A stretch of 64,000 nucleotides of DNA, taken from NCBI GenBank assembly GCA_015056495.1, contig SVGC01000001.1:154820-218819 (forward strand). The letters are read 5' to 3'. Position 1 is the stretch's first letter. Every line of letters starts with the position of its first letter. Position numbers and translations under genes: made by a program. Source of the stretch: Butyrivibrio sp. Its GTDB lineage: Bacteria > Bacillota > Clostridia > Lachnospirales > Lachnospiraceae. Below are positions 15,839 to 31,780 of the stretch, in pieces. The notes beneath the pieces were generated by a model. The model had not been told where the DNA came from. It saw nothing but the letters and a program-made list of their open reading frames with translations, and made no database searches.

Positions 15839-17008
15839 ATGGAATTAGAGAAAATCAAATTGCTTTCTGAACTTATCAATGCAAGCCTAAGTGGAAAAAA
15901 AATAGAGAAAGTACCTTCAGGGCTGGATTTTGATGAACTGACAGAACTTGCAAGTAAACAAAAAATGCAGACTATGCTATTAAAGCCTCTTCTTGGGGCA
16001 GAAGGATTATCTGAGAAGCAGGCAGAATATATCAAAAATGCCAGCATGAGATCATTTATTAAATCTGCAAATCAGTTGCACGATGTTGATATCATTGATA
16101 AAGCCTTAGAGGGTGCAGGATTAAAGCATCAGTTTTTAAAGGGAACAATATTAAAGGATATCTACCCGAATAAAGAACTTAGAGATATGGGAGATATTGA
16201 CATCCTTGTTGATGAAGATGAACTAGGCAGAGTCGATGAGGTACTTATAGCCAATGGTTTTACTATGTCCAACAGTGTAAAACATCATGATATTTATGTT
16301 AAAAAACCATTTACTGTGTTGGAGGTGCATAGATATCTGTCTGAGGATAAGCACCTGGGGCTGGATTGCAGATATTTTAGAGAAGGCGGCAACAATCTTC
16401 TTGTGGATGGAACAGGTTATACTTACAGGTATTCTCCAGAGTATTTCTATATATTTATGATCATGCACATGGCACGCCATTTTTATGAGAGAGGGTGCGG
16501 CGTCAGAGGACTTGTAGATCTGTATGTATATAAGAACAGATATGCAGGTGAAATGGATGATAAATATTTGGATGCGAAGCTTAAAGAATATCACCTGTAT
16601 GATTTTGAAAAACATATGGACAGGCTCTCACAGATTTGGCTTGGTGGCGTGCAGTGGACTTCCTTTTATGAGAACCTCTTTGATTACATGATAGATGGAG
16701 ATGTGTATGGCAAAGAGGAGAATGGTATCTGGAGCCAGTTCGCCAGAGAAAAGACTGTAGAAGACAGCAAGCTTGCCAGATTAAAGCTGAGGATGTGGTA
16801 TCTTTTCCCTTCATATCAGTATATGGCCAATTATAACGAATGGCTTAGAGGAAAGCCTTATCTGCTCCCTGTTGCATGGCTTTACAGAGCAACCCACGTG
16901 AGTAAGAAGCACAGGTTCAGACAGAATCTTGCTAATAGCGCTGATTCTGCCAAGATACATTCAATACAGCATATATACAAAGAAATGAATTTTGCCTTTA
17001 GAGAATAA
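15839..17008 (+). CDS. Nucleotidyltransferase family protein (PF14907 type; lasso-cluster N protein)
   Basis: A 389-residue cytoplasmic protein of the family often called nucleotidyltransferase 5. The core reads HQFLKGTILKDIYP then RDMGDIDILVD (about 118-130), giving the G[ST] and DxD features of a polymerase-beta-like nucleotidyltransferase fold. MIMHMARHFYERGCGVRGLVDLYVY is typical of this family. Relatives are found both in polysaccharide loci and in paeninodin-type lasso peptide clusters, where the N protein acts on the phosphorylated C-terminal serine of the peptide. Its placement one base before a B2 gene, with PqqD, kinase and cyclase genes downstream, favours the second context; a sugar-nucleotide role in the glycan pathway remains possible. 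Confidence 0.82.
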   Translation: MELEKIKLLSELINASLSGKKIEKVPSGLDFDELTELASKQKMQTMLLKPLLGAEGLSEKQAEYIKNASMRSFIKSANQLHDVDIIDKALEGAGLKHQFLKGTILKDIYPNKELRDMGDIDILVDEDELGRVDEVLIANGFTMSNSVKHHDIYVKKPFTVLEVHRYLSEDKHLGLDCRYFREGGNNLLVDGTGYTYRYSPEYFYIFMIMHMARHFYERGCGVRGLVDLYVYKNRYAGEMDDKYLDAKLKEYHLYDFEKHMDRLSQIWLGGVQWTSFYENLFDYMIDGDVYGKEENGIWSQFAREKTVEDSKLARLKLRMWYLFPSYQYMANYNEWLRGKPYLLPVAWLYRATHVSKKHRFRQNLANSADSAKIHSIQHIYKEMNFAFRE

Positions 17009-17009
17009 G

Positions 17010-17444
17010 ATGAAATTTAATATTAAGAGATTTTTTACAGATAATAAATTTAAAAAACTAACTATCATGTCTTATATTTACTCTGCAATTTTTCGTTTTC
17101 AGATAAAATTCATCAAGCCTAAAAAGCTGAAAAAGCATTGGGGAAAAGAGGGTGTTGAATCTGATACAGAAGAGAGTAGGGAGCATTATCTGTTTGCAGC
17201 GCATGTGTCACAGACTGTAAATCGTATATGTAATAAGACTTCCTGGGAGAGTAAATGCCTTGTGAGAGCATTGACAGCTCAGAGGATGTTGGTAAAGCAG
17301 GGAATTCCATCAACGATGTATCTTGGAGTCAGAGAGGATAATGGCAAGATGCTGGCTCATGCGTGGCTGCGTGTTGGCAAGATGATCGTAACAGGCGGGG
17401 AAGTATGTGATGGATTTACTGTAGTTGATAAGTTTTGTAAGTGA
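17010..17444 (+). CDS. Lasso peptide biosynthesis B2 protein (transglutaminase-like leader peptidase)
   Basis: A 144-residue protein matching the B2/Transglut_core3 family, the cysteine protease that removes the leader of lasso-peptide precursors. The catalytic Cys83 is in SKCLVRALTAQRML, followed by KQGIPSTMYLGVRED and the catalytic His117 in AHAWLRVG; the third residue of the triad cannot be fixed by eye. Length and motif order fit stand-alone B2 proteins. The ATG at 17010 follows the preceding stop by one base, so it is translationally coupled; a TTG six codons upstream overlaps that gene and is less likely. The B1 partner is the PqqD-like protein at 20984, separated by three glycan genes. 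Confidence 0.86.
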   Translation: MKFNIKRFFTDNKFKKLTIMSYIYSAIFRFQIKFIKPKKLKKHWGKEGVESDTEESREHYLFAAHVSQTVNRICNKTSWESKCLVRALTAQRMLVKQGIPSTMYLGVREDNGKMLAHAWLRVGKMIVTGGEVCDGFTVVDKFCK

Positions 17445-17465
17445 TTTTTTAGGGGATTGTGAAAA

Positions 17466-18506
17466 ATGATTGATCTGATAAAAAAGTACGATGTACCTAT
17501 TTATTTTGGATTGTTTAGAAAAATAGAAGATCGTGAACTTAGGAAAAGGCTTTATATCGCCCTTGCACCAGTACTGTTCATATATGGTTTTTTTTATTTT
17601 ATCTATGAGAATACTATTGACAGATTGTTTGTTCAGCATGAACTAAAGAGTTTTATATCAAAAAAATATAAATACAATCTTGCATTTGTTGCCTGTGTGC
17701 TTAATGAAGGCAGGTATCTGGAAGAATGGATTGAGTATCACAGACTTGTGGGTGTGGATAAATTTTATATTTTTGATAATGGAAGTACAGACAATACTAA
17801 AGAAATCCTCAGAAAATATATTGATGAGGGAATTGTAGAACTTGAGTATTTCCCAGGTAAGGGAAAACAGCTGGATATGTATTATGCAGGACTTAAGAAA
17901 TGCAGAAGGAAAGCCAAGTATGTTGGATTCATTGATCTTGATGAGTTTGTAGTACCAGCTGATGAGAATAAGAACCTTGTGGAAGTGCTGGATGATCGTT
18001 TTTCACATTTTAAAAATATGGCAGCCCTGTCTATCAACTGGCTGGTTTTTGGTTCTTCAGGACACAAGCTTAGACCTGAAGGCCTTGTGATAGATAACTA
18101 TCTCAATAGAGCAGAGTATGATTCTTCAACTAACAGACTGCTTAAATTTATAGCTAATCCTCGCCTCATCAAGGGGTGTATCACAAGTCCGCATTTTGCT
18201 TATCTTAGAAATGATACATTAAAACAGCTCAACGAGAGTGGCGTTGAGATTGATTCACCTTGGAATGACTATCCAAATAATACCTATGACTACATCAGGA
18301 TCAATCATTATTATGGTAAATCTGAGGAAGACTGCAAAGCCAAGTTTAACAGAGGAAATGTGAGTCGGCCTGATTATATTAAGAGAAAATGGGATCAGTT
18401 TGTCTTATATGACAGGAATGAAGTGCATGATGAGAGGATGCTTGTGTACAGTGATAGAATCAAGCAAGCAATAGAGGGGTATGGAGTTAATGAAAAAATC
18501 GTATGA
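17466..18506 (+). CDS. Glycosyltransferase family 92-type protein
   Basis: A 346-residue GT-A fold protein of the GT92/DUF23-like type. After a short N-terminal region with one hydrophobic segment (about 32-47), FVACVLNEGRYLEEWIEYHR, YIFDNGSTDNT and VGFIDLDEFVVP (metal site) appear in order, matching this family closely. Related enzymes add galactose or other hexoses; the substrate here is unknown. The hydrophobic segment suggests membrane association. AGGGGA precedes the ATG at 17466. The gene end overlaps the pyruvyl transferase start. Confidence 0.87.
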   Translation: MIDLIKKYDVPIYFGLFRKIEDRELRKRLYIALAPVLFIYGFFYFIYENTIDRLFVQHELKSFISKKYKYNLAFVACVLNEGRYLEEWIEYHRLVGVDKFYIFDNGSTDNTKEILRKYIDEGIVELEYFPGKGKQLDMYYAGLKKCRRKAKYVGFIDLDEFVVPADENKNLVEVLDDRFSHFKNMAALSINWLVFGSSGHKLRPEGLVIDNYLNRAEYDSSTNRLLKFIANPRLIKGCITSPHFAYLRNDTLKQLNESGVEIDSPWNDYPNNTYDYIRINHYYGKSEEDCKAKFNRGNVSRPDYIKRKWDQFVLYDRNEVHDERMLVYSDRIKQAIEGYGVNEKIV

Positions 18507-19653
18507 AATTTCCTTGATTGGATTAGAGATAGGAAATGAAAATATGGGGTGCGTTGCTCTTTCATATGCTTTTTTGAATCTGTTGCGGCAGGTTGGTGAG
18601 GAATTGGATATCACTATGAATATAACTGCTATCAGCTATGATGATAAAAAATTTGAAGGCGATGATGTTATCAAAAGTTATGAGGTCATAAGAGTTCATC
18701 CGAAGCAGATTTCTTTTTGGAAGAGTCTTAAAGATAATTTTAAAAATGCAGATATTATTTTTGATTTTACTCTGGGAGATAGTTTCTCTGACATCTATGG
18801 TTCAGAGAGATATATCAAGACAAATCTTCTGAAAGCAGCGGCTATAAAGTATAATTCAAGGTTTATACTTGGTCCTCAGACCTATGGCCCTTATACAAGA
18901 GGATGGGCCAGAAGTTGGGCTTCAAAGATAATAGGCAAGAGTTACAAAGTTTATTCTAGAGATGAAGCTTCTGCTGTAGTACTTGAAAAGATGGGTAATA
19001 GGGATGTGACTGTAGTTACAGATATAGCATTTGCTCTTCCGTATGATAAAAAAGATATCCAATGCGGGGATAAGATAAAAGTTGCGATCAATCCATCAGG
19101 ATTATTGTGGCGTGGTGGTTATACCGGAGATAATCAGTTCGGGCTGTCGATAGATTATCAGGATTATTGCAAAGGTATAGTTGAGAGCCTGCTAAATAGA
19201 GGTGATGTAGAGATTTATCTACTACCTCATGTAGGAACATCAGATGGGAATATGGAAAATGATCGTGAAGCATGCAAAAGGCTTCATGAATTATATCCAG
19301 CTACCCATGTAATTGACGATATTAATTCTCCTATGTTAGCCAAAGATTATATAGCAGCCATGGATGTACTGGTAGCAGCCAGAATGCATGCTACGGTTGG
19401 TGGAGTGTCTGCCGGAGTTGCTACTATTCCTGTGGCTTATAGCAGAAAATTCAAAGGCTTATTTGATAATATAGGTTATGAATATGTCCTTGATGTAAAA
19501 AAACTCAGCACTAAAGAAGCTATAGATCAGACCCTTGAATGGATCAGTGATTATAAGAATCTTCAGAAAGCTGCTGTACTTGCCGGCGAATCTGCGTCTG
19601 GTAAGCTGGACAGTTTTAAAAAAGATCTTATCAAAATTTTTAAGGCAATATGA
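18490..19653 (+). CDS. Polysaccharide pyruvyl transferase family protein
   Basis: A 387-residue protein of the CsaB/WcaK type that adds pyruvate ketals (or related groups) to glycans. The pattern is GNENMGCVALSYAF at the start, IILGPQTYGP-like FILGPQTYGPY near 120, YSRDEASAVVLEKMG, a VAINPSGLLWRGGYTGD strand and VAARMHATVGGVSAGVATIPVAYSRKF near the C-terminus (H-A...G.P). The ATG at 18490 is preferred because GGAG lies upstream at a workable distance; the ATG at 18481 is only two bases after AGAGGGG. It overlaps the GT92 gene. The FrhB-like protein that follows is a common partner of pyruvyl transferases in glycan loci. Confidence 0.85.
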   Translation: MKKSYEISLIGLEIGNENMGCVALSYAFLNLLRQVGEELDITMNITAISYDDKKFEGDDVIKSYEVIRVHPKQISFWKSLKDNFKNADIIFDFTLGDSFSDIYGSERYIKTNLLKAAAIKYNSRFILGPQTYGPYTRGWARSWASKIIGKSYKVYSRDEASAVVLEKMGNRDVTVVTDIAFALPYDKKDIQCGDKIKVAINPSGLLWRGGYTGDNQFGLSIDYQDYCKGIVESLLNRGDVEIYLLPHVGTSDGNMENDREACKRLHELYPATHVIDDINSPMLAKDYIAAMDVLVAARMHATVGGVSAGVATIPVAYSRKFKGLFDNIGYEYVLDVKKLSTKEAIDQTLEWISDYKNLQKAAVLAGESASGKLDSFKKDLIKIFKAI

Positions 19654-19654
19654 T

Positions 19655-20830
19655 ATGAAAAATAATAAATATGTTGAGTACTGCAGTGCCTGCGGACTAT
19701 GTCAGGCCAAAGGATATGCTGACTTTTCATATAAAAAAGGTTTCCTGACTCCGAACATTAAAACTGATGACTTTGGATTTTTTGATAAGGTATGTCCCGT
19801 ATCAGGAACTGCTTATAAGATTCAGGGAGAGTGGGGAGGCTATAACAGCGTATATTTAGGATATTCAACTGATCCTGATGTAAGGCTTAAGGCTTCCAGT
19901 GGAGGAGTTATTACGGCAATTTCTACATATCTTCTTGAAGAAAAAAAAGTAGATGGGATTATCCATTCAGGAAAAGATGATGAAAAGCCATGGCGTACGA
20001 AAACTTATTGCAGCACGACTATAGAAGAGATAAATAAAAGATGCGGATCCAGATATTCACAATCAATGCCTCTGGCAGATATTTTTAATCTGACTAGCAA
20101 AGATAAAAAGTATGCCTATATCGGTAAGCCTTGTGATGTCCTGGCTCTTACTAATTATTTTAATATTGATCCGGAGTTTAGAAAGAGGTTTGTCTGTACA
20201 ATATCTTTTTTCTGTGCAGGTGCTCCAAGTGAAAAAGCACAAATGGAGCTTCTTGAAGAACTAAAGTGTAGTCCTGATGATTGCGCAGATCTTAGGTACA
20301 GAGGAAATGGCTGGCCAGGATATGCCACCGCTATATCTAAAAACGGGAAAGAGACTCAGATGACTTACAACGAGTCCTGGGGCAGGATACTTGGACGGGA
20401 TATCAGAAAATCCTGTAAGTTCTGTATGAATGGAACCGGTGAGCCTGCTGATATATCCTGTGGTGATGCATGGTATCTAAATGATGATGGTACACCGGAT
20501 TTTACCGAAGGAACAGGTAGAAACATAGTATTTGGTAGATCTCTTGTAGGAGCTGATATATTGCGTAACGCTATGGAAGCAGGCTATGTGGATCTAAGTG
20601 ATTATTCCGGTGAGATTTCTGAGTTTAAGAAAGCGCAGAAGTTTCAGTATGAGCGAAAAGCTACTATGCTAGAGAAGTGTCTTGCAATGCTGATTATGTT
20701 TAAAAAGACGCCTTCCTATAAATATTGCGATCTGTGCAGGGTTTCAAGAAGTTCTACAGGCATCAGTTTTAAGCGCAGATGTAATATTTTTCTAGGAACG
20801 ATAAAGCGAATAGTTAAAGGAAAAATCTGA
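19655..20830 (+). CDS. FrhB/FdhB-type coenzyme F420 hydrogenase beta-subunit-like protein
   Basis: A 391-residue iron-sulfur/flavin protein. The N-terminus has a short cysteine motif (YCSACGLCQ), then ASSGGVITAISTYLL, KKYAYIGKPCDVLAL and TISFFCAGAPS, with further cysteines in SCKFCMNGTGEPADISCGDAW: the pattern of the FrhB_FdhB N and C domains. In anaerobic Firmicutes without F420 these proteins occur in surface glycan loci directly after a pyruvyl transferase, as here, but their substrate is undefined. A much longer open frame starts inside the previous gene; the ATG at 19655, overlapping no coding bases and preceded by AAGG, is the natural start because family homology begins there. Confidence 0.85.
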   Translation: MKNNKYVEYCSACGLCQAKGYADFSYKKGFLTPNIKTDDFGFFDKVCPVSGTAYKIQGEWGGYNSVYLGYSTDPDVRLKASSGGVITAISTYLLEEKKVDGIIHSGKDDEKPWRTKTYCSTTIEEINKRCGSRYSQSMPLADIFNLTSKDKKYAYIGKPCDVLALTNYFNIDPEFRKRFVCTISFFCAGAPSEKAQMELLEELKCSPDDCADLRYRGNGWPGYATAISKNGKETQMTYNESWGRILGRDIRKSCKFCMNGTGEPADISCGDAWYLNDDGTPDFTEGTGRNIVFGRSLVGADILRNAMEAGYVDLSDYSGEISEFKKAQKFQYERKATMLEKCLAMLIMFKKTPSYKYCDLCRVSRSSTGISFKRRCNIFLGTIKRIVKGKI

Positions 20831-20948: not shown

Positions 20949-20983
20949 TCTTCTAGCAAAATTGTTATTTTAAGGGGTTTGTT

Positions 20984-21262
20984 ATGGGTATTAATAGGGA
21001 TTCAAAAGTTGTTATCGGAAAAACTGTAAGTACATCAGAAATTGATAACGAAAAGGTCATGGTTGATTTTGAAACAGGTAAATATTTCATGATCAAGGGA
21101 GTTGGAAATGATATTTGGGAGAGAGTTCAGGCTGAAACATCAGTAGATGATCTTATAGCTTCTCTTTTATCAGAATATGAAATAGATGAACCAACATGCG
21201 AAAAGCAGGTCATAGCTTTTCTTGATAAGCTTAATGAATATGGATTTTTAAAAGTGGTATGA
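20984..21262 (+). CDS. PqqD-family RiPP recognition protein (lasso B1-like)
   Basis: A 92-residue protein with the PqqD/RRE fold pattern: VMVDFETGKYFMIKGVGNDIWERV followed by two predicted helices and LDKLNEYGFLKVV. PqqD-like B1 proteins bind the leader of a precursor peptide and deliver it to the B2 protease and the cyclase. Length fits a stand-alone B1. Aggggt-type ribosome binding site (AAGGGG) precedes the ATG. It is 63 bases upstream of a HPr-kinase-like gene and in the same region as two precursor genes whose leaders carry a WxxP motif comparable to the YxxP motif recognised by lasso B1 proteins. In glycan loci of Proteobacteria a similar PqqD-kinase pair exists, so family membership is firm but the lasso role is inferred. 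Confidence 0.88.
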   Translation: MGINRDSKVVIGKTVSTSEIDNEKVMVDFETGKYFMIKGVGNDIWERVQAETSVDDLIASLLSEYEIDEPTCEKQVIAFLDKLNEYGFLKVV

Positions 21263-21325: not shown

Positions 21326-22219
21326 ATGTACAGATATTATGCATATGGTCTCAAGATCATTTCTGATACTGCTTTTGAACAGTTTGTCAGAAATGATTTT
21401 GAGGGTGAGGCAGATTTACAGATACACCACTATGTTGAAGATGGTGTAAAGAAAATACTAAAAAATGATAATCAGGTCTGCGTAAGAGGAAAGGATATCT
21501 TCTTTAGAAATTATGCTGGGCTCTTTGAAGCAAGGCTTGGTGATGAGATTTTTTTTGAAGAGCATGAAGGCGTTAACGAAGCAGTAGCAAAAGAATTTGT
21601 CATGGGTAATGTCATGGCATTACTTTTTTTAGAGAGAGGGTTAAATGTCATTCATGGAGCAGCAGTCAGATATAGGGATAAGACCATTATAATATCTGGC
21701 AATAGTGGTGCGGGCAAATCTACTGTTACTACAGAGTTTATACGACGCGGAGCAAAACTTATAACAGATGATCAGGCAGTTATAAGCTTTGAAAATGGCG
21801 AACCTGTTATTATCCCAGGTTATCCTTCTCAGAAATTGTGTGAGGATGCTGCCAGGAGAAATGAAATTGATATTGACGAACTAATCAAAGTTGATGATAC
21901 CAAGAATAAATATGCTATTTCAAGAATGGATAGTTTTTATCCGGAGATATCAAGGATTGATGCAGCCTTTTTTATCAGCAGACATGAGGAAGGTGAGAAT
22001 CTGGTTGCAGGGCAGGTGACAGGAGCCAGAAAGGCAGATGTGATCACCAAAAATCTTTTCTTAAAGCCATTCTTTACAACGACAATGCCTATTCCACCTA
22101 AGATGATGATGGATTGTATTACTCTTGCAGGCAAGATTGTAGTGTACGAGGTTTCAAGGAAATCTAATGCTCAAACATTGGATGGTATTATAGATTATAT
22201 AGACAGTACGTTAGGATAA
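21326..22219 (+). CDS. HPr-kinase-like protein, RiPP tailoring kinase K1
   Basis: A 297-residue protein related to the C-terminal catalytic domain of HPr kinase/phosphorylase. It has His110 in VIHGAAV, a P-loop GNSGAGKST (125-133), the acidic pair in LITDDQAVI (Asp148, Asp149) and PGYPSQKLCEDAARR, typical of kinases that accompany PqqD and lasso genes. True HprK has an N-terminal domain and regulates sugar uptake through HPr Ser46; this protein lacks that context. In the paeninodin pathway the homologue phosphorylates the C-terminal serine of the precursor. The ATG at 21326 follows AAGAGG; the upstream in-frame extension overlaps the REP-like hairpin. It ends 148 bases before precursor 1. Confidence 0.86.
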   Translation: MYRYYAYGLKIISDTAFEQFVRNDFEGEADLQIHHYVEDGVKKILKNDNQVCVRGKDIFFRNYAGLFEARLGDEIFFEEHEGVNEAVAKEFVMGNVMALLFLERGLNVIHGAAVRYRDKTIIISGNSGAGKSTVTTEFIRRGAKLITDDQAVISFENGEPVIIPGYPSQKLCEDAARRNEIDIDELIKVDDTKNKYAISRMDSFYPEISRIDAAFFISRHEEGENLVAGQVTGARKADVITKNLFLKPFFTTTMPIPPKMMMDCITLAGKIVVYEVSRKSNAQTLDGIIDYIDSTLG

Positions 22220-22585: not shown

Positions 22586-22606
22586 GAAGTGAAAAGTGGG
22601 GACGAG

Positions 22607-23575
22607 ATGAATAAACTGATAAGTGTGATCATTCCTGTATATAATACAGAAAAATATGTAGAAAAGGCTTTATCATCAGTAATTGAACAGACATACAAAA
22701 ATCTTGAGATAATTGTTATTGATGATAAATCTACAGATGATTCACCAAGAATCATAGATGAGATAGCTGCGAAGGACAGCAGAGTACGAGTTTATCATAG
22801 CGCTGAAAATGTGGGACATTCTCTGGCGAGAAACAAAGGGCTGGAATTGGCTCAGGGCGACTATATTGGCTTTGTGGATTCTGATGATTATATTCACCCG
22901 CAGTTATATGAGAGACTATTATCGATAATGGAAGAAAATGATACTGATATTGCCATTTGTCGTAATATTGCTTTCAAGGATGAAAAAGAATTACCTGACT
23001 TTAAAGAAGCATTGACCGGAAAAGCAAAAGTTGAGACCAGAAGTCAGTATATGGAACACTTTATGGATCCTTTTACCGGTCCTGTTTCTTGGGTTGGAAC
23101 TAAGCTGTATAAGGCTGAACTTTTTGAGAATACTAGGTTTAAAGATTTTTTTGGCGAAGATCTTGTTATTAATGCTGAGATGGCATTGAAAGTTAAAAAG
23201 GTAGTATGGACTGAAGATAAGCTATATGCATACAGAGTCAGAACTGGTAGTACAACAGCAGCATGGACAAAAGATCTCTCGGTTCCATCCGCCCTTTCAT
23301 ATCTTGCAGCAATGGATGTATTAAAAGATGAAGATGAGCAGTATACCAACAGACTGACAATTTATACAATAGGCAAGTTGGCCAATTTATATGCCAACTG
23401 TAATAATGATTATGGTAAAGAGGCCGCATCCAAGGTATATGAAATATTTGCAAGAGAATATGATAATCAGAGAGCAGCACTCTCTAAGGCAGGCGCCAGA
23501 GATACCTTTAAACTCTTCATTGCAAGAAGACTCCCGGCTGTCTACTGTAGACTTGCAACACGTATAACTGTATGA
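22607..23575 (+). CDS. Glycosyltransferase family 2 next to the RiPP precursor
   Basis: A 322-residue GT2 with LISVIIPVYNTEKYVEKALS, IVIDDKSTDDS, NVGHSLARNKGLELAQGDY and GFVDSDDYIHP (DxD site). The ATG at 22607 follows GTGGGGACGAG; a GTG six codons upstream is disfavoured because the ribosome binding site would fall inside. It is isolated between the precursor terminator and the convergent cyclase gene, away from the main glycosyltransferase operons, so it could either glycosylate the peptide or belong to the glycan pathway. Sequence alone does not distinguish these. Related to the GT2 at 9711. Confidence 0.87.
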   Translation: MNKLISVIIPVYNTEKYVEKALSSVIEQTYKNLEIIVIDDKSTDDSPRIIDEIAAKDSRVRVYHSAENVGHSLARNKGLELAQGDYIGFVDSDDYIHPQLYERLLSIMEENDTDIAICRNIAFKDEKELPDFKEALTGKAKVETRSQYMEHFMDPFTGPVSWVGTKLYKAELFENTRFKDFFGEDLVINAEMALKVKKVVWTEDKLYAYRVRTGSTTAAWTKDLSVPSALSYLAAMDVLKDEDEQYTNRLTIYTIGKLANLYANCNNDYGKEAASKVYEIFAREYDNQRAALSKAGARDTFKLFIARRLPAVYCRLATRITV

Positions 23576-23600: not shown

Positions 23601-25535
23601 TTATTTCAGCAAAAACAGCAATAAAGATAACTGATTTAATGATTGAATATCTTGTAGTCTGTCATCGGGATCGAATTTCAAATCCTGAGTATTTATATAT
23701 TTATCCAGAAGTTGCCTGTTTGCTTCAAATATTGAAGAGTAGTCCATATAGTTCTTTCTTAGTCTGTAGACAAAGTCGGCGCTTTGGATACCGCGGTTGT
23801 ATATCTGACGGATGATGTGTTTGGGGACTATGTTTTTCATATAATCTGTTATTAATCGTCTTTCATATTTTCCATCACAAAAGCATCTGATTGGCATAGC
23901 CATGCAGAGTTCTATCATGCGCTTATCTCTGGTAGGATCTCTTGATATGATGCCGTAGCACAGTTCAAATATAGCATTGGCATAGGATACCTGCTGAAAA
24001 CTATTTGGAAAAAATATACTTCTTCTTCTCTGGATTTCAGAAAAAATCCTATCGCTTCCCATGTATTTGGCATTATCTAAATATACGTTTTTTAGAGAGT
24101 ACTTTTTAATAAGGTCTTCTCTTGTAAGGCAGTCATCTAATGATACCGTTGGATGGATATACTCAGATAGATTTGATAGTACGTCTTGCAAAAAAAGTTT
24201 TCTATTAATCTTAAAACTATGTGAAAAATCCCTATACTGCCTGATCATTGTCATAAAATGTAATGCCTTGAATTCATACCATAGCCTTGTTATAAGACCT
24301 CCTGATGAGACTGTGCAGTTGCCGTGTTGGCCTGCAAGCAGGAGCTTACACCCATCAGCGGCGGCAGTTTTATATATTTCATCCATCCATACTGCATTTA
24401 CAGAGTATTTGATAGGTGAGCAGAAAAGGTTTACAAAGCGCTGCATTTCAGTGAGAGCACTCTTTCCTTCGCAGGAGATATATTTCGGTACTATATTGCC
24501 AAAAGCTTTGCAGAATTTTTCTACAGGTTCTTTTTCATTTGCAAGTCTGCCGTTGTTTTCTGGTGTGTAGTCACTTAAAGGCACTGAGGTGTATGTGTGC
24601 AGCTCTTCGCCGGTCTCTTGCAATCTGATTGCAGCAAGGGATGCAACGGAACTTGAATCCAGACCACTACTTAAGAAAGAGCCTTTTTTGCCATATACTC
24701 GCAGAGTATCTGTAACACATTTGGTATAGGTCTCCAGGAATAGTTTTTTGTAGTCACTGTCATTTGGCAGATTTAGAGGTTCTACATCCCTTATAGGATC
24801 CCAGTAGGAGATTGTTGTGTAAGAGACTGTTTTATCTTCGTTGAGAGTGACTTTAAGATATTGACCTGCCAGAAGCTGATATACGCCCTCGTAGGGAGAC
24901 AGCCCCGGAAATACTACCATATCAGCTGATAGATTGGATTCGCAGGCAGCTATATATTTTTCAGATACTTCAATTGAATGGTCTGTAGCTTCTAATACGG
25001 GTTTTATCAGGGTAGAAAAAATTAGTTGATCATCCTTGATATAATAGTGGATACACCTGTCGCCACAGTGGTCCACAAACAGATAGAATTCATTGTTGTC
25101 ATAGTCATAGATTGCAAAAGCAAATACACCTAAAAGATGATCACATAAGCTTATTCCCCATTTAAGATAGGCTAGGTAGATAAGCATACCATCAGGGGTA
25201 TCCCCGGTTGGAATCATTGATGTGCTAACAGATGTTGCGGAATCAGATATTTGAAATGCCAGTCCGCTTGAAAGTTCCCGGATAAGTTCATCTCTGTTAT
25301 CCAGATATGCATCCGCCGTAAAGAGATTATGATTGACCTCATCATAATAGGGAAGAATTTCTTTCTCAGATTCTTTTGTAATAAACTGAATGCCGGCACC
25401 CATGTAAGCATTGTCGTGACATGAACCTTCCATGCGGTCTATCTTAAAAACAGAATATGCTTTTTCAAATTTGTTGCATATATCTTTTGATATATTATCT
25501 ATATTAAAGTCAATAACTCCCCAGATAGCTGACAT
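23601..25535 (-). CDS. Asparagine-synthetase-like lasso macrolactam cyclase (C protein)
   Basis: A 644-residue AsnB-fold protein. The N-terminal Ntn-hydrolase-like half keeps landmarks such as YLDNRDEL (77-84) and LLGVFAFAIYD, but the sequence begins M-S-A-I, so the glutaminase Cys2 is Ser and glutamine cannot be the ammonia source. The C-terminal synthetase half has the ATP PP-loop SSGLDSSS (289-296), needed for adenylation. Loss of Cys2 with an intact PP-loop is the pattern of lasso cyclases, which activate an Asp/Glu side chain for ring closure by the core N-terminus. AGAGG precedes the ATG. It is transcribed convergently to the GT2 gene and divergently from precursor 2. An alternative is the amidotransferase-like proteins of glycan loci. 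Confidence 0.85.
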   Translation of the reverse strand: MSAIWGVIDFNIDNISKDICNKFEKAYSVFKIDRMEGSCHDNAYMGAGIQFITKESEKEILPYYDEVNHNLFTADAYLDNRDELIRELSSGLAFQISDSATSVSTSMIPTGDTPDGMLIYLAYLKWGISLCDHLLGVFAFAIYDYDNNEFYLFVDHCGDRCIHYYIKDDQLIFSTLIKPVLEATDHSIEVSEKYIAACESNLSADMVVFPGLSPYEGVYQLLAGQYLKVTLNEDKTVSYTTISYWDPIRDVEPLNLPNDSDYKKLFLETYTKCVTDTLRVYGKKGSFLSSGLDSSSVASLAAIRLQETGEELHTYTSVPLSDYTPENNGRLANEKEPVEKFCKAFGNIVPKYISCEGKSALTEMQRFVNLFCSPIKYSVNAVWMDEIYKTAAADGCKLLLAGQHGNCTVSSGGLITRLWYEFKALHFMTMIRQYRDFSHSFKINRKLFLQDVLSNLSEYIHPTVSLDDCLTREDLIKKYSLKNVYLDNAKYMGSDRIFSEIQRRRSIFFPNSFQQVSYANAIFELCYGIISRDPTRDKRMIELCMAMPIRCFCDGKYERRLITDYMKNIVPKHIIRQIYNRGIQSADFVYRLRKNYMDYSSIFEANRQLLDKYINTQDLKFDPDDRLQDIQSLNQLSLLLFLLK

Positions 25536-26075: not shown

Positions 26076-26108
26076 AAAAACCGGGTAGGCATGTGGCTAC
26101 TCGGTTTT
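26076..26108 (-). terminator. Terminator overlapping the end of the sensor kinase gene
   Basis: On the minus strand AAAACCGAGTAG (which includes the stop codon TAG) pairs with CTACCCGGTTTTT around a seven-to-eight-base loop; the second arm supplies the T-run. Confidence 0.6.
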
Positions 26109-26894
26109 ACTGTAAGGAATCTTAATGCTGAATATACTGCCCTTGCCAAGTCCAGGTGACGAACACCAGATACTGCCGCCATGTTTTTCGACGATGGATC
26201 TGCATATTGACAGACCAAGTCCTGCACCCTGGCTTGAGCCGGGAGTTCTGGCATTGCTGACTCTAAATGACCGGTTAAAGATAAGGTCCAGATTACCCTC
26301 TTCAATTCCGATACCTGTATCTGCAATTGAGATGACAAAGCAGTTTTCATTCTCATTTTTTTGCAGAGATAATGTGATGGTATCTCCATCGGAAGAGTAA
26401 TTGAAAGCGTTGTTAAATATATTGTCTAAGACTTTTTTCATATTGTCAGTATCAATTTTTACGACATCCATGTAGTCGGAATCAATATCCAGAACCATGT
26501 GTCTTTTAGCGTATTTAGGATCTTCTTCGTAAGAGAAAAAGATTTCTTCCAGAAATGGTGCAATAGGAATATCTTCAAGATTGAGGTTGTAGGATGCTGA
26601 ATCCATTTTGGTCAGAGTAAATATGTCACCGATCATTTTTTCAAGGACTATGCTGCGTTCGTTTATCAGCTTTAAGGCAGAATCGATTTCCTCTTTTGAA
26701 GGATCATCCAGAGATCTCAGATATTCAACACTTGAACGGATGGCAGTGATCGGTGATCTCAGATCATGTGATATATTGGCATATATTTCGTCTCGCTCTT
26801 TTATAGTGCTCATCAGTTTTTGATTGGACTCGTAAAGAGCACGGGATAGATCTTCAACTGACAGTTCAGGTTTTTCAAAAGATTTTTTTGACAT
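26097..26894 (-). CDS. Soluble sensor histidine kinase
   Basis: A 265-residue kinase without membrane segments or a recognisable sensor domain. After a short coiled N-terminal region come the dimerisation/phosphoacceptor domain with His43 in ISHDLRSPITAIRSS, the N box (DNIFNNAFNYSSDG), the G1 box (IADTGIGIEEG), the F box (LIFNRSFRVSN) and the G2 box (GAGLGLSI). A small cytoplasmic kinase of this type may sense an intracellular partner, possibly the neighbouring ABC exporter. It is downstream of its response regulator in a minus-strand operon (76-bp gap). Confidence 0.9.
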   Translation of the reverse strand: MSKKSFEKPELSVEDLSRALYESNQKLMSTIKERDEIYANISHDLRSPITAIRSSVEYLRSLDDPSKEEIDSALKLINERSIVLEKMIGDIFTLTKMDSASYNLNLEDIPIAPFLEEIFFSYEEDPKYAKRHMVLDIDSDYMDVVKIDTDNMKKVLDNIFNNAFNYSSDGDTITLSLQKNENENCFVISIADTGIGIEEGNLDLIFNRSFRVSNARTPGSSQGAGLGLSICRSIVEKHGGSIWCSSPGLGKGSIFSIKIPYSKTE

Positions 26895-26970: not shown

Positions 26971-27654
26971 TTATCCGCGTTTTAGCGTAAAACGGTAACC
27001 TTTGCCATATAGGCTTTCGATGGCATTTTCAAGGCCTGTATATAAGCCTAGCTTTTTTCGAAGGCGGCTTGTCAGCACCATGATAGAGCGTCTGTCTTCA
27101 TCAATGTAGGCATTGTAAAGCGTGTTTCCAATCTCTTCGTAACCAATAGATTGACCGGCTTTGCTTGCGAGAAGTAGAAGCAGATCGTATTCCTTATTGG
27201 ACAGGGCTATCTCTTCTTCATAGTAGTAAGCTTTGTGCTTGCGGGTATTGATATTTAGCGGTGTGAAATTGAGGATGCTGTCATCCTTGACTGTAGTGTT
27301 TTTTCTGATCTGCAACTGTATCCTGGCTGCAAGCTCGCCCAGACTGTAGGGCTTGACCATGTAGTCATCGGCACCGGACAGGAGCCCTTTTATCTTGTCG
27401 TCCTCAGAATCTTTTCCGGACAAGAAGATTACAGGACAGTGGCATAGATTTTTGATCTTTGGAAGTGCATCAAAACCATCAATCTCCGGCATCATTACAT
27501 CAAGGATGATGCAATCAGGCTTATTTTTACTGATAGCATTCAGTGCGCTTTTGACATTATCAAATACCTGAACTGAGTATCCGGCATTTGTAAAATATTT
27601 TTTGTTGATCTGTAAAACGTCCAGGTCGTCATCAATGAAAAAAATGAGATTCAT
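26971..27654 (-). CDS. OmpR-family response regulator
   Basis: A 227-residue regulator: receiver domain (1-120) with acidic pocket Asp8-Asp10, phosphoacceptor Asp52 in ILDVMMPEIDG, Ser/Lys positions in FLSGKDS and MVKPYS; and a C-terminal winged helix (about 130-227) ending YGKGYRFTLKRG. The start is the ATG at 27654 after GAGGA; the open frame extends further upstream but with no receiver homology. It lies divergent to the ABC exporter, whose promoter is 23 bases away, so it is a likely regulator of the exporter and perhaps of the precursor genes. Target sites cannot be named. Confidence 0.91.
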   Translation of the reverse strand: MNLIFFIDDDLDVLQINKKYFTNAGYSVQVFDNVKSALNAISKNKPDCIILDVMMPEIDGFDALPKIKNLCHCPVIFLSGKDSEDDKIKGLLSGADDYMVKPYSLGELAARIQLQIRKNTTVKDDSILNFTPLNINTRKHKAYYYEEEIALSNKEYDLLLLLASKAGQSIGYEEIGNTLYNAYIDEDRRSIMVLTSRLRKKLGLYTGLENAIESLYGKGYRFTLKRG

Positions 27655-27676
27655 AGGAATTTCCTCTAATATTTTA

Positions 27677-27705: not shown

Positions 27706-27715
27706 AAAAGAGTCT

Positions 27716-27776: not shown

Positions 27777-27838
27777 GGACAAATAAAGCTGTCTTATATA
27801 TTTTACGAAAACAGCAGGGAATAAGCAAGGTAATCGTT

Positions 27839-29560
27839 ATGGGGTACAGGGAAAAAGTTAAAAATTTGTGGGAGGATCGAGAAAATCAAAAGCACTATGT
27901 GAAATGGCTTATGTCATATTCCAAGCCTTATTATGGCAGAGTGATGCTTTTGATGTTGATCAGATTGTTTGGGGTGTTTGCAGGAATCTACATGGCTATA
28001 TTATCTCAGAAAGCCATTGATACTGCAGGTGATGGTTCTAATATACTCATTCCCCTTATTGGATACGTAATATTGATGATAATAATGCAAGGTGCGACTA
28101 TTGTGTATTCACTGGTCAATACCATGCTTAATGAAAAATATGGATTTGGTATCAGAAAACAGGTCTATGATAAGATTCTGGATTCTGTCTGGATGGATGT
28201 ACAAAAATATCATACAGGTGACTTGATGACGCGTATGACAAGTGATGCAGGTATCATTGCTGACGGTGTCGTATCTGTAGTCCCAAATATCATAATGTTG
28301 GCGGTAGAGTTGGTGGCTGTATTTATTACGCTATACTCATATTCACCATTTTTAGCTATATCAGCGCTGTGCATGGCGCCTCTTGCAGTCGTACTTAGTT
28401 TTGTTCTGGGAAGGATACTTAAGAGGATACAGGTCAAGGTACAAGAGTCAGAAACGGCCTACAGGTCATTTATTCAGGAAAGTATTGCCAATATCCTTAT
28501 AGTTAAGGCTTTTTCTAATGAGGAGCGATTTTCTGACAATCTTGTAAAACTTAGAGAAGAGAGATTTAGATGGGTCTGGAAAAAGAGTAAAGTCTCTCTC
28601 GGATCATCTGTTGTAATAGGAATAGCTTTTCAGCTGGGATATATCCTGGCTTTTGGTTATGGCGTGTACCAGATATCTCTGGGGCTTATTACTTATGGTA
28701 CTATGACAGTTTTTCTTACCCTTTTTAACAGGGTCATGTCTCCTGTAATAGAGCTTGCTTCACAGCTTCCTAGAGTGGTTGCAATAATTGCTTCTGCAGG
28801 CCGAGTTATGGAGATTGGAAATCTTAAGATAGAAGATCGGAAGGGAACTGGTAATATAAGTGGCAATGTTGGAATAAGAGCCGAGGGTATATCTTTTGGT
28901 TATAACAAAGATATAGTTATAAAAGACAGTTCTTTTAATATAAAACCAGGAGAATTTGTTGCAATTGTAGGCGATTCCGGTATCGGTAAGACTACTCTCA
29001 TAAGGCTTCTTTTAGGCTTTGTCAATGCCGGAAGCGGAGAGATCACTTATTATGATCAGGATGGACGTACAGCAGGAATTAATGCTGATATCAGAAATAT
29101 AGTGTCATATGTACCACAGGGCAATACTCTTTTTTCAGGAACCATCAGGAGAAATCTTCTTATGGGATGTCCTGAGGCCAGTGAAGAAGAAATCAATGAA
29201 GCTCTTAAAATGGCTGATTGTCTGTCATTTATCTCAGAGATGCCTGATGGAATTGACACTGTGATAGGAGAGAGAGGAACTGGTCTTTCAGAGGGACAGG
29301 CCCAGCGAATTGCCATTGCCAGAGCATTTATAAGGAAGTCTCCATTCCTTCTTATGGATGAGGCAACATCTGCACTTGATGAGAGAACAGAGCTTAAGGT
29401 AATAGACGGACTCCGAAATATTACTCCGAAACCAACCTGTTTATTTATTACTCATAGAAGAAGTGTACTTAAGTATTGTGATAGACAGCTTAGGATTAGT
29501 GATGGACATATATATGAGGAAACGATTTCTGATGCAGTTATAGATAATAGTAATATATAG
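27839..29560 (+). CDS. ABC exporter with fused permease and ATPase (lasso D-like)
   Basis: A 573-residue half-transporter. Residues 30-310 form a six-helix exporter domain; the nucleotide-binding domain has Walker A GDSGIGKTT (378-386), LSEGQ signature (483-487), Walker B FLLMDE (Glu508 catalytic) and the H-loop His539, so it is fully active in sequence and probably works as a homodimer. There is no C39 peptidase domain, which fits a system with a separate B2 leader protease. Its place among lasso-type genes and next to a two-component system makes it the likely peptide exporter and self-immunity protein. Export of a glycan precursor is an alternative. Confidence 0.9.
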   Translation: MGYREKVKNLWEDRENQKHYVKWLMSYSKPYYGRVMLLMLIRLFGVFAGIYMAILSQKAIDTAGDGSNILIPLIGYVILMIIMQGATIVYSLVNTMLNEKYGFGIRKQVYDKILDSVWMDVQKYHTGDLMTRMTSDAGIIADGVVSVVPNIIMLAVELVAVFITLYSYSPFLAISALCMAPLAVVLSFVLGRILKRIQVKVQESETAYRSFIQESIANILIVKAFSNEERFSDNLVKLREERFRWVWKKSKVSLGSSVVIGIAFQLGYILAFGYGVYQISLGLITYGTMTVFLTLFNRVMSPVIELASQLPRVVAIIASAGRVMEIGNLKIEDRKGTGNISGNVGIRAEGISFGYNKDIVIKDSSFNIKPGEFVAIVGDSGIGKTTLIRLLLGFVNAGSGEITYYDQDGRTAGINADIRNIVSYVPQGNTLFSGTIRRNLLMGCPEASEEEINEALKMADCLSFISEMPDGIDTVIGERGTGLSEGQAQRIAIARAFIRKSPFLLMDEATSALDERTELKVIDGLRNITPKPTCLFITHRRSVLKYCDRQLRISDGHIYEETISDAVIDNSNI

Positions 29561-29673
29561 ACACTATTTTGAAATAAAAAATCGGTTTTTTATAGATAAA
29601 AAATGATAAAATGTGATGGAATTGTGAACTTATATATGCTATATTTTTAGTGATAAATTTTTTAGGGGATATA

Positions 29674-29699
29674 TCAGGGGGATAATTTCAGGGGGATAA
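29674..29699 (+). repeat. Duplicated ribosome-binding-like element before PssD
   Basis: TCAGGGGGATAA occurs twice (29674-29685 and 29688-29699), 14 bases apart, immediately before the ATG at 29703; a related TTAGGGGATAT lies just upstream. Only the second copy is close enough to act as Shine-Dalgarno sequence, and its G-run ends seven bases from the ATG. Confidence 0.6.
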
Positions 29700-29702
29700 A
29701 GT

Positions 29703-30164
29703 ATGAAGAAGGTCTTATTAGTTGCGTCTTCTGGTGGGCACATGGAGGAACTTACCAGATTACACAATCTCACAGCCAAGTATGATTGCTGCTGGGTTAC
29801 TGAGAAAAATGACTTCCAAAAGTATGGGAAAGCTGAAGAAGTACAATATTATGTACCTCAGATGAATCGTAGAGAGGTATTCTTTTTCTTTAAATTCATA
29901 TATCTTGTTTTTCGTTCATTATATATTTTATTTAAAGAAAATCCAGATTGTGTTATTTCTACCGGTGCATTAATATCATATCCTTTTTGCAGAATTGCTA
30001 AGGCCATGGGCAAAAAAGTCATCTTTATAGAGTCTTTTGCGCGTGTTAATGAATTATCACTTACAGGAAGACTTTTGTATAACCATGTAAGTATGTTTAT
30101 AGTTCAGTGGCCTGAGATTGCCCAGAAATATGACAAGGCGATTGTGGGAGGTGGTATTTTTTGA
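29703..30164 (+). CDS. Alg14-like glycosyltransferase membrane subunit (PssD type)
   Basis: A 153-residue protein homologous to PssD/Cps14F/Alg14. KKVLLVASSGGHMEELTRL is the classic opening, with one hydrophobic stretch around 60-77 (FFFKFIYLVFRSLYILF) and VISTGALISYPFCRIAKAMGKKVIFIESFAR. This subunit anchors the catalytic PssE/Alg13 partner to the membrane; together they make the N- and C-halves of a GT28-like enzyme adding the second sugar (often glucuronate, galactose or GlcNAc) to the lipid carrier. Its stop overlaps the start of the partner by four bases. Confidence 0.92.
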   Translation: MKKVLLVASSGGHMEELTRLHNLTAKYDCCWVTEKNDFQKYGKAEEVQYYVPQMNRREVFFFFKFIYLVFRSLYILFKENPDCVISTGALISYPFCRIAKAMGKKVIFIESFARVNELSLTGRLLYNHVSMFIVQWPEIAQKYDKAIVGGGIF

Positions 30165-30727
30165 TCTTTGTTACCGTAGGAACACAAAAATTTCAGATGA
30201 ACAGGTTGATGAAGCAGATCGAGAAGATGGCAGAGAATATGCCGCAGGAGCGATTTGTTGTTCAGTATGGTAACTGTACTTATGTACCAAAGCATTGTGA
30301 GACTTATCAATTTATGGATAGACCACAATTTGAACAGTGCGTTTCAGAATGTTCAGTTCTTATCACACATGGCGGCGTTGGTACCATAATGTCAGGAATC
30401 AGAGCTGGCAAGCCTGTAGTAGTAGTGCCTAGAAGGCGCCAGTATGGTGAGCATGTCGATGATCATCAGATAGAAGCAGCCAGAGCGCTTAGTGCGCATA
30501 AATGCCTTGTAATCTGTATGAACACAGAATTTCTCGGATATATAATCGATCATATTTCAGAATATGTATTTAATAGATATGAAGAGCCTGAGAAAAAGGT
30601 TGAAGATCTGGTACTTGGATTTATCGAGTCACCTGAGCCTGTGAAAAGAAGGACTCCATGTTTTTTTAAATTTTTAAGGAAAAAGAAACAAGCTGCTGAA
30701 ATACCGCAGGCAATCAAACAGATTTAG
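30161..30727 (+). CDS. Alg13-like glycosyltransferase catalytic subunit (PssE type)
   Basis: A 188-residue protein of the GT28 C-terminal type. IFVTVGTQKFQMNRLMKQ, then CSVLITHGGVGTIMSGIRAGKPVVVVPR and YGEHVDDHQIEAA form the donor-nucleotide site. It starts with TTG at 30161, overlapping the stop of the PssD gene as TTGA, and has the ribosome binding site GGGAGGTGG. Forms a heterodimer with the preceding product. The last 30 residues are Lys-rich and may touch the membrane. Confidence 0.92.
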   Translation: MIFVTVGTQKFQMNRLMKQIEKMAENMPQERFVVQYGNCTYVPKHCETYQFMDRPQFEQCVSECSVLITHGGVGTIMSGIRAGKPVVVVPRRRQYGEHVDDHQIEAARALSAHKCLVICMNTEFLGYIIDHISEYVFNRYEEPEKKVEDLVLGFIESPEPVKRRTPCFFKFLRKKKQAAEIPQAIKQI

Positions 30728-30834
30728 AAAACAAAGCTGTGAAGATAAGGCTAGTACTTATTTTCATGGCTTTTCTATTACTACTAAATGGCGCATCGCC
30801 CGATATTTTTTTACTGCAGAAATACAAAAATCTA

Positions 30835-30863
30835 TAGATAATTCGCTTGGTTTTATATAAAAT
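30835..30863 (+). promoter_or_regulatory. Possible promoter of kinase K2
   Basis: TAGATA (30835-30840), 17-bp spacer, TAAAAT (30858-30863) in the 171-bp gap before the second kinase gene. The -10 is good, the -35 moderate. Confidence 0.35.
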
Positions 30864-30898
30864 ACTTTTGTGTAGAAAAAAGCTAGCGAGGGGATTTT

Positions 30899-31780
30899 AT
30901 GTATTATTACAAATTATATGGTCAGATAATCGAGAGTGATGTCAGTTTCAGGCAATTAGTGCTCTCAGATGACCATAATGCTTCTATTACTATTCATAGT
31001 GGTGCTATTCCAGAAGATATAAGAGATAAAGAAAATACCTGCAATTTCGGTGACAGCTATAGTTGGCTCTCAAACAGAACCTGTTATCTTGTGATAAAAA
31101 ATGGTAATGAGATCATATATGAACTAAAGCCTGGCAAAAACCATGCCTACATGCTCTCATTTATCCTTGGCTATGGAATCGCAATGTTGCACATGCAAAG
31201 AGGCGAGATTTCAATCCATTGTTCAGCACTTTCATTCAATGATAAAGCTATTCTGGTAGCAGGGAAAAGTGGCAGCGGTAAATCAACTGTAACAACAGCT
31301 CTTATTGCTAAAGGCTGCAAACTGATGGCAGATGATATGGCTGTTATACAGATAAATGAAGCATCTGCAATTGCATATCCTGCATTTCCGTATCAAAAGC
31401 TATGTAGAGATGCGGCATTGGCTAATGGATACGACTTGGACCAACTTATATATATTGATGAAGAGAAAGATAAATTTCTTATTCATTTTGAAGATGATTT
31501 TTCAACTTCAGGAAAAGAAATTGCTGCAATGTTTATCCTCATGGGAGAAGTAAATTCTAAAGAAGTGGTCACTCAGCAGATAAAAGGCATAGCAAAGATA
31601 CCAGCACTTGCGGACAACCTGTTTTTAAAAGCTTTGATGAAAGACGAGCGCTTCAAAGGTGTCTGCGGACAGAGTTGTGTAAAAGCTGCTGACAAGTTCC
31701 CTATATATGCCATAGGTCGCCCGGCTGGAGCGAATACGGTAGATATAGTACGAGACTTCGTAATAGATAACATCAACTAA
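30899..31780 (+). CDS. HPr-kinase-like protein, RiPP tailoring kinase K2
   Basis: A 293-residue paralogue of the kinase at 21326. It keeps His107 in SIHCSAL, the P-loop AGKSGSGKST (121-130), the acidic pair in LMADDMAVI (Asp145, Asp146) and YPAFPYQKLCRDAA. Both proteins also share the short N-terminal region beginning YYxYG-like and the C-terminal FLKAL..D/..F segment. AGCGAGGGG precedes the ATG. It stands apart from the other RiPP genes, between PssE and the initiating transferase. With two kinases and two precursors, one per peptide is a simple hypothesis; a redundant copy or a role in glycan control is also possible. Confidence 0.85.
   Translation: MYYYKLYGQIIESDVSFRQLVLSDDHNASITIHSGAIPEDIRDKENTCNFGDSYSWLSNRTCYLVIKNGNEIIYELKPGKNHAYMLSFILGYGIAMLHMQRGEISIHCSALSFNDKAILVAGKSGSGKSTVTTALIAKGCKLMADDMAVIQINEASAIAYPAFPYQKLCRDAALANGYDLDQLIYIDEEKDKFLIHFEDDFSTSGKEIAAMFILMGEVNSKEVVTQQIKGIAKIPALADNLFLKALMKDERFKGVCGQSCVKAADKFPIYAIGRPAGANTVDIVRDFVIDNIN

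Follow-up and report, generated by a model that had tools for sequence, protein, structure and literature searches.

A Butyrivibrio lasso-type peptide locus set among polysaccharide genes, with two precursor classes and a soluble histidine kinase bearing a leader-like tail

Why should the genes of a lasso-type peptide pathway lie scattered among those of a surface polysaccharide, and what might a histidine kinase without a sensor do there? These questions are raised by a 64,000-nucleotide stretch of DNA from Butyrivibrio sp. (family Lachnospiraceae; assembly GCA_015056495.1, contig SVGC01000001.1, positions 154,820 to 218,819), which we call the window and which belongs to a 3.93-Mb draft genome in 77 contigs. 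At window positions 15839-31780, open reading frames (ORFs) and profile matches reveal a gene set for a ribosomally synthesised and post-translationally modified peptide (RiPP), namely a leader-binding protein (B1), a leader peptidase (B2), an AsnB-type cyclase (C), two HPr-kinase-like peptide kinases (K1 and K2), an NTP_transf_5 nucleotidyltransferase (N), an exporter (D), a two-component system and two precursors (peptides 1 and 2), all lying among glycan genes (table 1). The initial annotation of this DNA had named these genes, and each has an open frame at or near the place it gave and matches the expected family; its start positions were close, except that K1 most likely begins at 21326 rather than 21299 and the response regulator at about 27666. 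The explanation that we prefer, with a probability of roughly one half, is that two leader-tagged peptides are matured by one shared front end and that the histidine kinase would dock on the B1 protein of that front end.

The leader that peptides 1 and 2 share is plain by eye, as had been pointed out at the start (MKKWTTPEVTELEISETA and MKNWVRPEVSELNIEETA). A leader profile finds them with E values of 8e-11 and 6e-10, respectively, figures that are partly circular in that both peptides are among its 26 seeds. Peptide 1 has a WxxP leader, Thr at position -3 as in the predicted precursors of Sabino et al. (2020, PMC7533575, their Table 3; this and the other papers cited are represented here by their available passages), and a predicted core G1...D9 followed by ...SFPSGE; precursors in that table which are near to it include one of Lachnospira multipara, ...ETAQ/GKSIKPSFDAFRIDENGNLWASFES. 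Peptide 2 has the same leader followed by a Cys, a Pro-rich spacer and the C-terminus ...DINELS (...PSVPATPLMPATPIIPSNNGGCDEDINELS), and it matches no NCBIfam model at E 0.1. The same profile (E up to 0.1) gives 99 unique candidate precursors in loci that contain a B2 relative (of 144 confirmed B2 relatives, the best 80 supplied the loci named here; L047, L058, L060, L073 and L089 repeat genomes and are excluded from the precursor and tail counts and from the kinase and cyclase trees, and three matches that were too short or had no clear start were dropped). Fifty-one of the 99 end in Ser, against 77 of the 1303 other ORFs of over 100 amino acids in the same loci; the corresponding p of 6e-36 should not be read at face value, since the sequences are related. 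Two classes can be told apart, with labels ("SG" and "Cterm") assigned by simple pattern: class I, the peptide 1 type, has G1...D8/9 and an inner S-G motif, and class II, which includes peptide 2, consists of a head, a hydrophilic spacer of widely differing length and make-up, and a terminal Ser. A C-terminal Ser is the site on which paeninodin-type kinases act (PMC9266682, PMC8498205).

The processing enzymes resemble those of lasso pathways, and the genome has one B2 and one lasso-type cyclase. B2 is far over the cut-off of its lasso model (81 against 33 bits), is the sole PF13471 match in the genome, and has the Cys89 and His123 that are invariant in a six-row alignment. B1 has a lasso model as its best NCBIfam match, and its closest solved chain is 9x90 (PbaB1; E 6.7e-15); eight of the 13 PbaB1 positions checked are identical in the window protein (Y38, I48, L65, Y69, E70, Q79, F83 and L87), positions 39, 41, 44 and 71 are conservatively changed, E75 is replaced by T, and position 42 is K, whereas the RiPP recognition elements (RREs) of paeninodin type have G. 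The best NCBIfam match of C is again a lasso model; residue 2 of C is Ser, not Cys, and it is the only lasso-type AsnB found in the genome, the four other Asn_synthase matches lying in three proteins that all have Cys2. K1 and K2 match Hpr_kinase_C (cut-off 33.3 bits; K2 is just under it), and both keep the H-K-D-D residues that are retained in 86 of 90 HPr-like kinases (a count in which the repeated genomes are included). With lasso models as the best matches and peptide 1 near published predicted precursors, the early reading of these genes as a lasso set of the paeninodin type (A, B1, B2, C, K, N and D) is upheld.

The histidine kinase has 265 residues, over which only HisKA and HATPase exceed the Pfam curated cut-offs, and it has no membrane segment (its highest 19-residue hydropathy is 0.84, and the value is at most 1.5 in all 25 aligned kinases). 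Its N-terminal tail, which had gone unnoticed in the initial annotation, reads MSKKSFEKPEL and fits the motif K-x-x-[FY]-x-x-P-x-[LIV]. Among the aligned kinases, position 6 is F in 22 and Y in three, P9 and [LIV]11 are present in 25 of 25, K or R stands at position 3 in 20 of 23, and positions 5, 7, 8 and 10 vary freely. This spacing equals that of the leader residues in contact with the protein in the PbaB1-leader crystal structure, K-18, W-15, P-12 and L-10 (Popov et al. 2026, PMC13381572), with F taking the place of the W or Y of the published motif. PbaB1 binds its leader below 1 uM and a W-to-Y variant near 40 uM (same reference), so the Phe motif may be a weak ligand that a WxxP precursor easily displaces. 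In the predicted structure of the kinase (mean pLDDT, the predicted local distance difference test score, 86.7), residues 1-12 have neither helix nor strand and run directly into a helix, residues 13-61, which holds the phospho-accepting His43, so docking on B1 could plausibly alter kinase activity.

How closely is the tail tied to such loci? The motif is present in every one of the 28 soluble kinases with intact frames in these loci, which were found by a whole-kinase profile and hence independently of the tail; among 28 homologous kinases that have no short tail, none has it in the first 40 residues (L152, one of 29 others, proved to be a tail kinase with a misplaced start, and L130 gave no kinase); one control, L147, comes near with FEKPDM at about residue 27. 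Within the first 30 residues the motif occurs in 27 of 30 kinases and in 40 of the 1357 other proteins that the loci encode, frames under 85 amino acids (among them one kinase fragment, L076) being left out. Of the three exceptions among the kinases, the frame of L066 is truncated, L099 is a membrane kinase unrelated to the rest, and L064 has the motif behind a later start; 19 of the 40 other bearers are ABC transporters, most of which share one recurring N-terminal stretch. When 1174 N-termini are ranked with the precursor-leader profile, kinases take the top five places and 12 of the top 30. Across 396 genomes of the family, B2 is over its cut-off in 13 and has a match of any strength in 42. 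The tail profile gives 49 matches in the same genomes, of which 13 extend into the tail and 36 cover only the region from about position 13 to the active His; at most 16 candidates were scored per genome in the tail searches, so a genome that gave no match is no proof of absence, and the profile includes rows from several of the matching genomes or near-copies of them, so kinases found by the tail are not independent evidence. Ten of the 13 genomes with full tail matches are among the 13 with B2 over its cut-off, and the tail kinases of the other three adjoin a WxxP precursor (G422), K, B1 and an exporter (G245), or N, K, an exporter, B1 and a YxxP precursor (G271); RiPP genes share the stretch with the tail kinase in 12 of the 13 cases. 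Full tail matches in six of 41 relatives fall in the same six that have B2 over its cut-off, and a class-wide search, aimed beyond the family, found full-length matches in only two of 393 genomes, namely that of the window and that of a congener.

The tail also appears to vary together with the B1 pocket. In LppB, the B1 protein of a linear phosphorylated family (linear polyphosphorylated peptides, LPP) that is sister to the paeninodin-kind lasso peptides, Asp70 binds the Tyr of a YxxP leader, and the changes Q79D and G42N together strongly raise the binding of such a leader by PbaB1 (Popov et al. 2026, PMC13381572). In 27 loci (where L167 and G376, which cover more of the genomes concerned, stand in for L039 and L076, and kinases that have no B1 in their stretch were omitted), B1 has Asp79 in five of six loci with a Tyr kinase and in none of 21 with a Phe kinase (Fisher p 7e-5), a covariation that we regard as suggestive. 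An account of the kinase residue as a function of Trp or Tyr in the precursor leader fails, for L085, G024 and G097 pair WxxP or W-start leaders with Tyr kinases.

One Butyrivibrio genome (G005; L030, contig C11, about 105-106.8 kb) has an LPP-like set beside its lasso set, with a YxxP precursor (MKKSYVKPVL), a second B1 that has N42 and D79, and an HPr-like kinase. With this set, the range of LPP-like genes would come to include the Lachnospiraceae. L159 and L160 contain K, an exporter, N, an LPP-type B1 and a tail-bearing histidine kinase of the Tyr form, and profiles found neither B2 nor cyclase in them.

K1 and K2 belong to different clades, each of which goes with one of the two precursor classes. 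In a tree of 84 HPr-like kinases (L110 left out; this and the cyclase tree are quick searches whose support values are solely those of the Shimodaira-Hasegawa-like approximate likelihood ratio test, SH-aLRT), the K2 clade has 16 members (SH-aLRT 97), and all ten that have a precursor within 2.5 kb adjoin one of the C-terminal-Ser class; the remaining six, which have none within that distance, include K2 itself. The K1 clade has eight members (SH-aLRT 95), of which the six with a near precursor all adjoin class I and two have none near. The cyclases show a parallel division. In a tree of 65, the window's C groups with class-I cyclases (SH-aLRT 98, 18 rows, of which 13 adjoin class I, three have a C-terminal-Ser precursor nearest and two another kind), and two further lineages (SH-aLRT 100 for both, 10 and 6 rows) adjoin class-II precursors. 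Beyond weak AsnB matches, no member of these two lineages was found in the window's genome. Peptide 2 is of a different class and no separate cyclase lineage goes with it here; it is therefore not bound to be a lasso. We found no second precursor class with class-tracking kinases in the literature covered.

The wider set of precursors has some peculiarities. In a subset of class II (L043, L066, L079, G019 and L161) the head is W.G...DGGYIGDG.ISGH or nearly so, and the spacer ranges from almost nothing to about 40 residues before the terminal Ser; the precursors of L043, L066, L079 and G019 adjoin one cyclase lineage in the tree. Class-I precursors have their inner Ser-Gly near the end, and a Lachnospira paralogue stops exactly at that Ser (...WASFES as compared with ...WASFPSGAEE), a pair that looks as if some precursors bear a C-terminal extension. 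Four Clostridium loci (L069, L082, L088 and L090) have several WxxP precursors (about six in L069) with long Cys/His-rich cores, many ending in Ser, and up to seven kinase copies (L090); no cyclase was found within 10 kb of them. The cyclase (336 amino acids) and B2 (81 amino acids) frames of G036 (L037/L038) are short, and that cluster looks broken or misassembled.

How might these parts work together? In either precursor, the W-x-x-P-x-V leader would be bound by B1 and then cut away by B2. C would close peptide 1 into a lasso with a predicted G1-D9 ring, and K1 would act on the same peptide. Peptide 2 probably stays linear or becomes disulfide-bonded, to be phosphorylated at its C-terminal Ser by the K2 lineage, though it may also be a lasso made by C. 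N would add a sugar or nucleotide to the phosphate, by analogy with PsmN in pseudomycoidin, and the MsbA-like exporter would move the products out beside the surface polysaccharide. From what we know of their enzymology, dehydrated cores would not be expected from these enzymes. The sensor-less kinase would bind free B1 weakly through its tail until a precursor pushed it off, and the two-component system would in this way report B1 loading and tune, upward or downward, the expression of RiPP and glycan genes alike. That a kinase should mimic a leader, dock in the B1 pocket and be displaced by precursor, so as to couple peptide supply, maturation capacity and polysaccharide expression inside the cell with no need of a signal from outside, is a tentative proposal drawn from sequence, and we would place it a little short of an even chance.

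Several observations weigh against this explanation. The B1 score of 77.5 bits is just below the cut-off of 80, the 185 bits of C are under the cut-off of 525 (its model is of the "exception" kind), and peptide 1 reaches 19.4 bits with the PadeA-family model, missing the cut-off of 27, and does not end in Ser. Peptide 2, with the core counted from its Cys, has Glu at core position 8; it is one of seven precursors with a T-A-C start, five of which have an acid at core 7-9, a point against its being linear, and only three of which end in Ser. C is nearer to peptide 2 (165 bases from frame to frame) than to peptide 1, and K2 lies 4.9 kb from peptide 2, so that the pairing of these two rests on the tree. 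As for the kinase, the motif by itself occurs in 3% of other N-termini, and no individual kinase is significant with the precursor-leader profile (best E 0.17). The tail kinase of G444 is on a 14-kb contig that has glycan genes and no RiPP gene, B2 being on another contig, and no tail match was found in three of the 13 B2 genomes (G203, G348 and G404). When kinship is allowed for, the Tyr/Asp covariation comes down to at most three independent pairs with none opposite (sign test p 0.25); L085 is a clear exception to the pairing, and G005 and G097 carry a second, non-Asp B1. Finally, a search of the intergenic regions for a common regulator-binding site found only AT-rich words.

Could the locus instead be an ordinary paeninodin-type lasso cluster within an exopolysaccharide locus, in which peptide 2 is another lasso precursor and the tail a structural cap unlinked to B1? 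This is possible, and we doubt it. The best matches of the core genes are indeed lasso models, lasso clusters with several precursors are on record (Popov et al. 2026, PMC13381572) and Bacillota lasso clusters in capsule loci have been published, the Glu of peptide 2 and the adjacent cyclase fit such a reading, and the cyclase lineages beside other class-II precursors suggest that peptides of this kind can be cyclised; but those lineages are the ones not found in this genome, the likely kinase of peptide 2 is in a separate clade, and two of the T-A-C precursors (L040 and L065), with no acid at core 7-9, could not form the usual ring. Nor does a structural cap sit easily with a tail that has B1-binding spacing, goes with loci that encode an RRE and varies together with a residue of the B1 pocket.

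Proteobacterial polysaccharide loci can carry PqqD together with HPr-kinase-like and AsnB-like proteins, a set that the initial annotation had named as its alternative; on this second reading the genes would be a glycan-locus amidotransferase or HPr-rel-A system in place of a peptide pathway. B1 does match TIGR04353 weakly, at 17.8 bits (cut-off 35), but this compares with 77.5 on the lasso model, the TIGR04352 kinase model reaches 32.2 and 45.1 bits (cut-off 200), C has 49.6 bits on the XrtA/PEP-CTERM amidotransferase model against 185, and B2 is over its lasso cut-off. With NCBIfam scores so far under those of the lasso models, and with precursors present, this proteobacterial HPr-rel-A/PEP-CTERM reading was rejected as very improbable. 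The pattern that, by the initial annotation, would have refuted its lasso reading did not appear: the enzymes side with lasso families and precursors like peptide 1 are conserved, though in peptide 2 the leader and class are conserved and the core is not. The initial annotation had also suggested that the peptide may be bound to the polysaccharide, leave the cell with it or regulate it. Unlikely to our minds, and compatible with the shared front end and docking kinase that we prefer, is the idea that the peptide is joined to the polysaccharide by a phosphodiester on its C-terminal Ser (through K2 and N), at the end of the Pro-rich spacer. The plan of class-II precursors (head, variable spacer, terminal Ser) and the recurrent glycan context suit it, and in pseudomycoidin the C-terminal Ser receives first a phosphate from PsmK and then one or two hexoses from PsmN (PMC9266682); however, one or two hexoses are not a polymer, and deletion of LppN was without effect in a heterologous host (Popov et al. 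2026, PMC13381572).

The interleaving of a lasso set with a polysaccharide locus is already published in kind. Nor is it peculiar to this DNA, as at least two glycan markers occur in 26 of 50 full-length (over 20.3 kb) B2 loci (18 of 31 in the Lachnospiraceae) and in none of 20 control segments (19.9 kb each, at set positions in seven same-genus genomes), a comparison whose marker profiles were grown on B2 loci and are hence biased toward them; 24 of the 50 have fewer than two markers, and 14 have none. Of the seven B2 genomes of the genus, five have an initiating sugar transferase no more than about 21 kb from B2, and in the two exceptions the contig ends 6 kb from B2 or has no initiating sugar transferase.

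Table 1. Genes of the lasso-type set and its neighbours, in window coordinates
Feature	Position	Strand	Basis
N, NTP_transf_5 nucleotidyltransferase	15839..17008	+	PF14907 147 bits; PsmN-like by family
B2, lasso leader peptidase (Transglut_core3)	16992..17444	+	NF033537 81 bits
GT92 glycan gene	17466-18506	+	Pfam
Pyruvyl transferase glycan gene	18481-19653	+	Pfam
FrhB-like glycan gene	19535-20830	+	Pfam
B1, PqqD-type RRE	20984..21262	+	NF033536 77.5 bits; nearest solved chain PbaB1
K1, HPr-kinase-like peptide kinase, class-I lineage	21326..22219	+	Hpr_kinase_C 34.4 bits; HKDD kept; tree
Peptide 1, class-I lasso precursor, 46 aa	22368..22508	+	Leader profile; resemblance to Sabino et al. 2020, Table 3
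GT2 glycosyltransferase	22589..23575	+	PF00535
C, lasso-type AsnB cyclase without Cys2, class-I lineage	23601..25535	-	NF033535 185 bits, under cut-off; tree
Peptide 2, class-II precursor, 67 aa	25787..25990	+	Leader shared with peptide 1
Soluble histidine kinase, N-terminal leader-like tail MSKKSFEKPEL	26097..26894	-	HisKA and HATPase
OmpR-type response regulator	26971..27666	-	PF00072 and PF00486
D, MsbA-like ABC exporter	27839..29560	+	PF00664 (ABC_membrane) and PF00005 (ABC_tran)
PssD/PssE-like (Alg14/Alg13-like) glycosyltransferase pair	29703..30727	+	PF08660, PF04101
K2, second HPr-kinase-like peptide kinase, class-II (C-terminal Ser) lineage	30899..31780	+	HKDD kept; tree; Hpr_kinase_C 32.3 bits
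Initiating sugar transferase (Bac_transf)	31949..33433	+	PF02397 232 bits

Directly upstream of N, at 12978-15816, are the genes of two proteins, one with a CotH domain and the other small and of unknown function; this pair precedes N in several related loci and may be part of the unit. Scans of the window for promoters (71 promoter-like sites, compared with 64, standard deviation 8, in shuffled sequence) and terminators (6 terminator-like sites, compared with 9) were uninformative. The word AATTGT[AG], seen upstream of peptide 1, of C/peptide 2 and of PssD, was dropped as a candidate site, as 18 copies are present in the window, mostly outside those regions.

Two-component regulation of RiPPs is generally thought to sense the finished extracellular peptide. 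A kinase that read RRE occupancy would, if real, follow a different logic of control, one shared by various Lachnospiraceae of gut and rumen and open to test with small soluble proteins. The precursor classes, with their class-specific kinases and cyclases, also make a natural set for asking why lasso peptides inhabit polysaccharide loci; the biological roles of such peptides are called unknown by Popov et al. (2026, PMC13381572). A leader-mimicking histidine kinase in RRE or lasso loci was not found in the literature searched, the available part of the Hungate1000 paper (PMC13289728) included, a search that covers open papers only and is no proof of novelty; nor does the term "histidine kinase" appear in the available text of Popov et al. 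(2026, PMC13381572).

How, then, does the window compare with systems already known? With the paeninodin-type clusters of Bacillota it shares A, K, C, B1, B2, D and N, the WxxP leader and a discrete PqqD-type B1; it differs from them in that its genes are scattered among glycan genes, in its two kinases and second precursor class, in its sensor-less two-component system, and in that B1, C and peptide 1 are under the NCBI cut-offs. The predicted Butyrivibrio and Lachnospira lasso clusters of Sabino et al. (2020, PMC7533575) already include an HPr kinase, PqqD, a nucleotidyltransferase, glycosyltransferases (GT2) and a histidine kinase with its regulator; the available passages describe no second precursor class, class-tied kinase and cyclase lineages or leader-like tail. 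Pseudomycoidin (PsmK, PsmN) has in common with the window a kinase and a nucleotidyltransferase-type enzyme that act on a C-terminal Ser, and the review passages available mention neither a glycan locus nor a two-component system for it. LPP peptides have a YxxP leader, their own B1, of the N/D type (N33 and D70 in LppB), and a SipW-like peptidase; in the window, on the other hand, both leaders, that of peptide 2 included, are WxxP, B1 has K and Q at the corresponding positions, and the genome has a single B2. A close parallel in setting is with the Bacilli, where paeninodin-kind lasso clusters lie inside capsular polysaccharide loci and up-regulation together with an exopolysaccharide gene is reported (Popov et al. 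2026, PMC13381572). The window shares with those lasso and LPP clusters its place in a polysaccharide locus, K, N, an MsbA-like exporter and, in peptide 2, a probable counterpart of their linear phosphorylated partner peptides.

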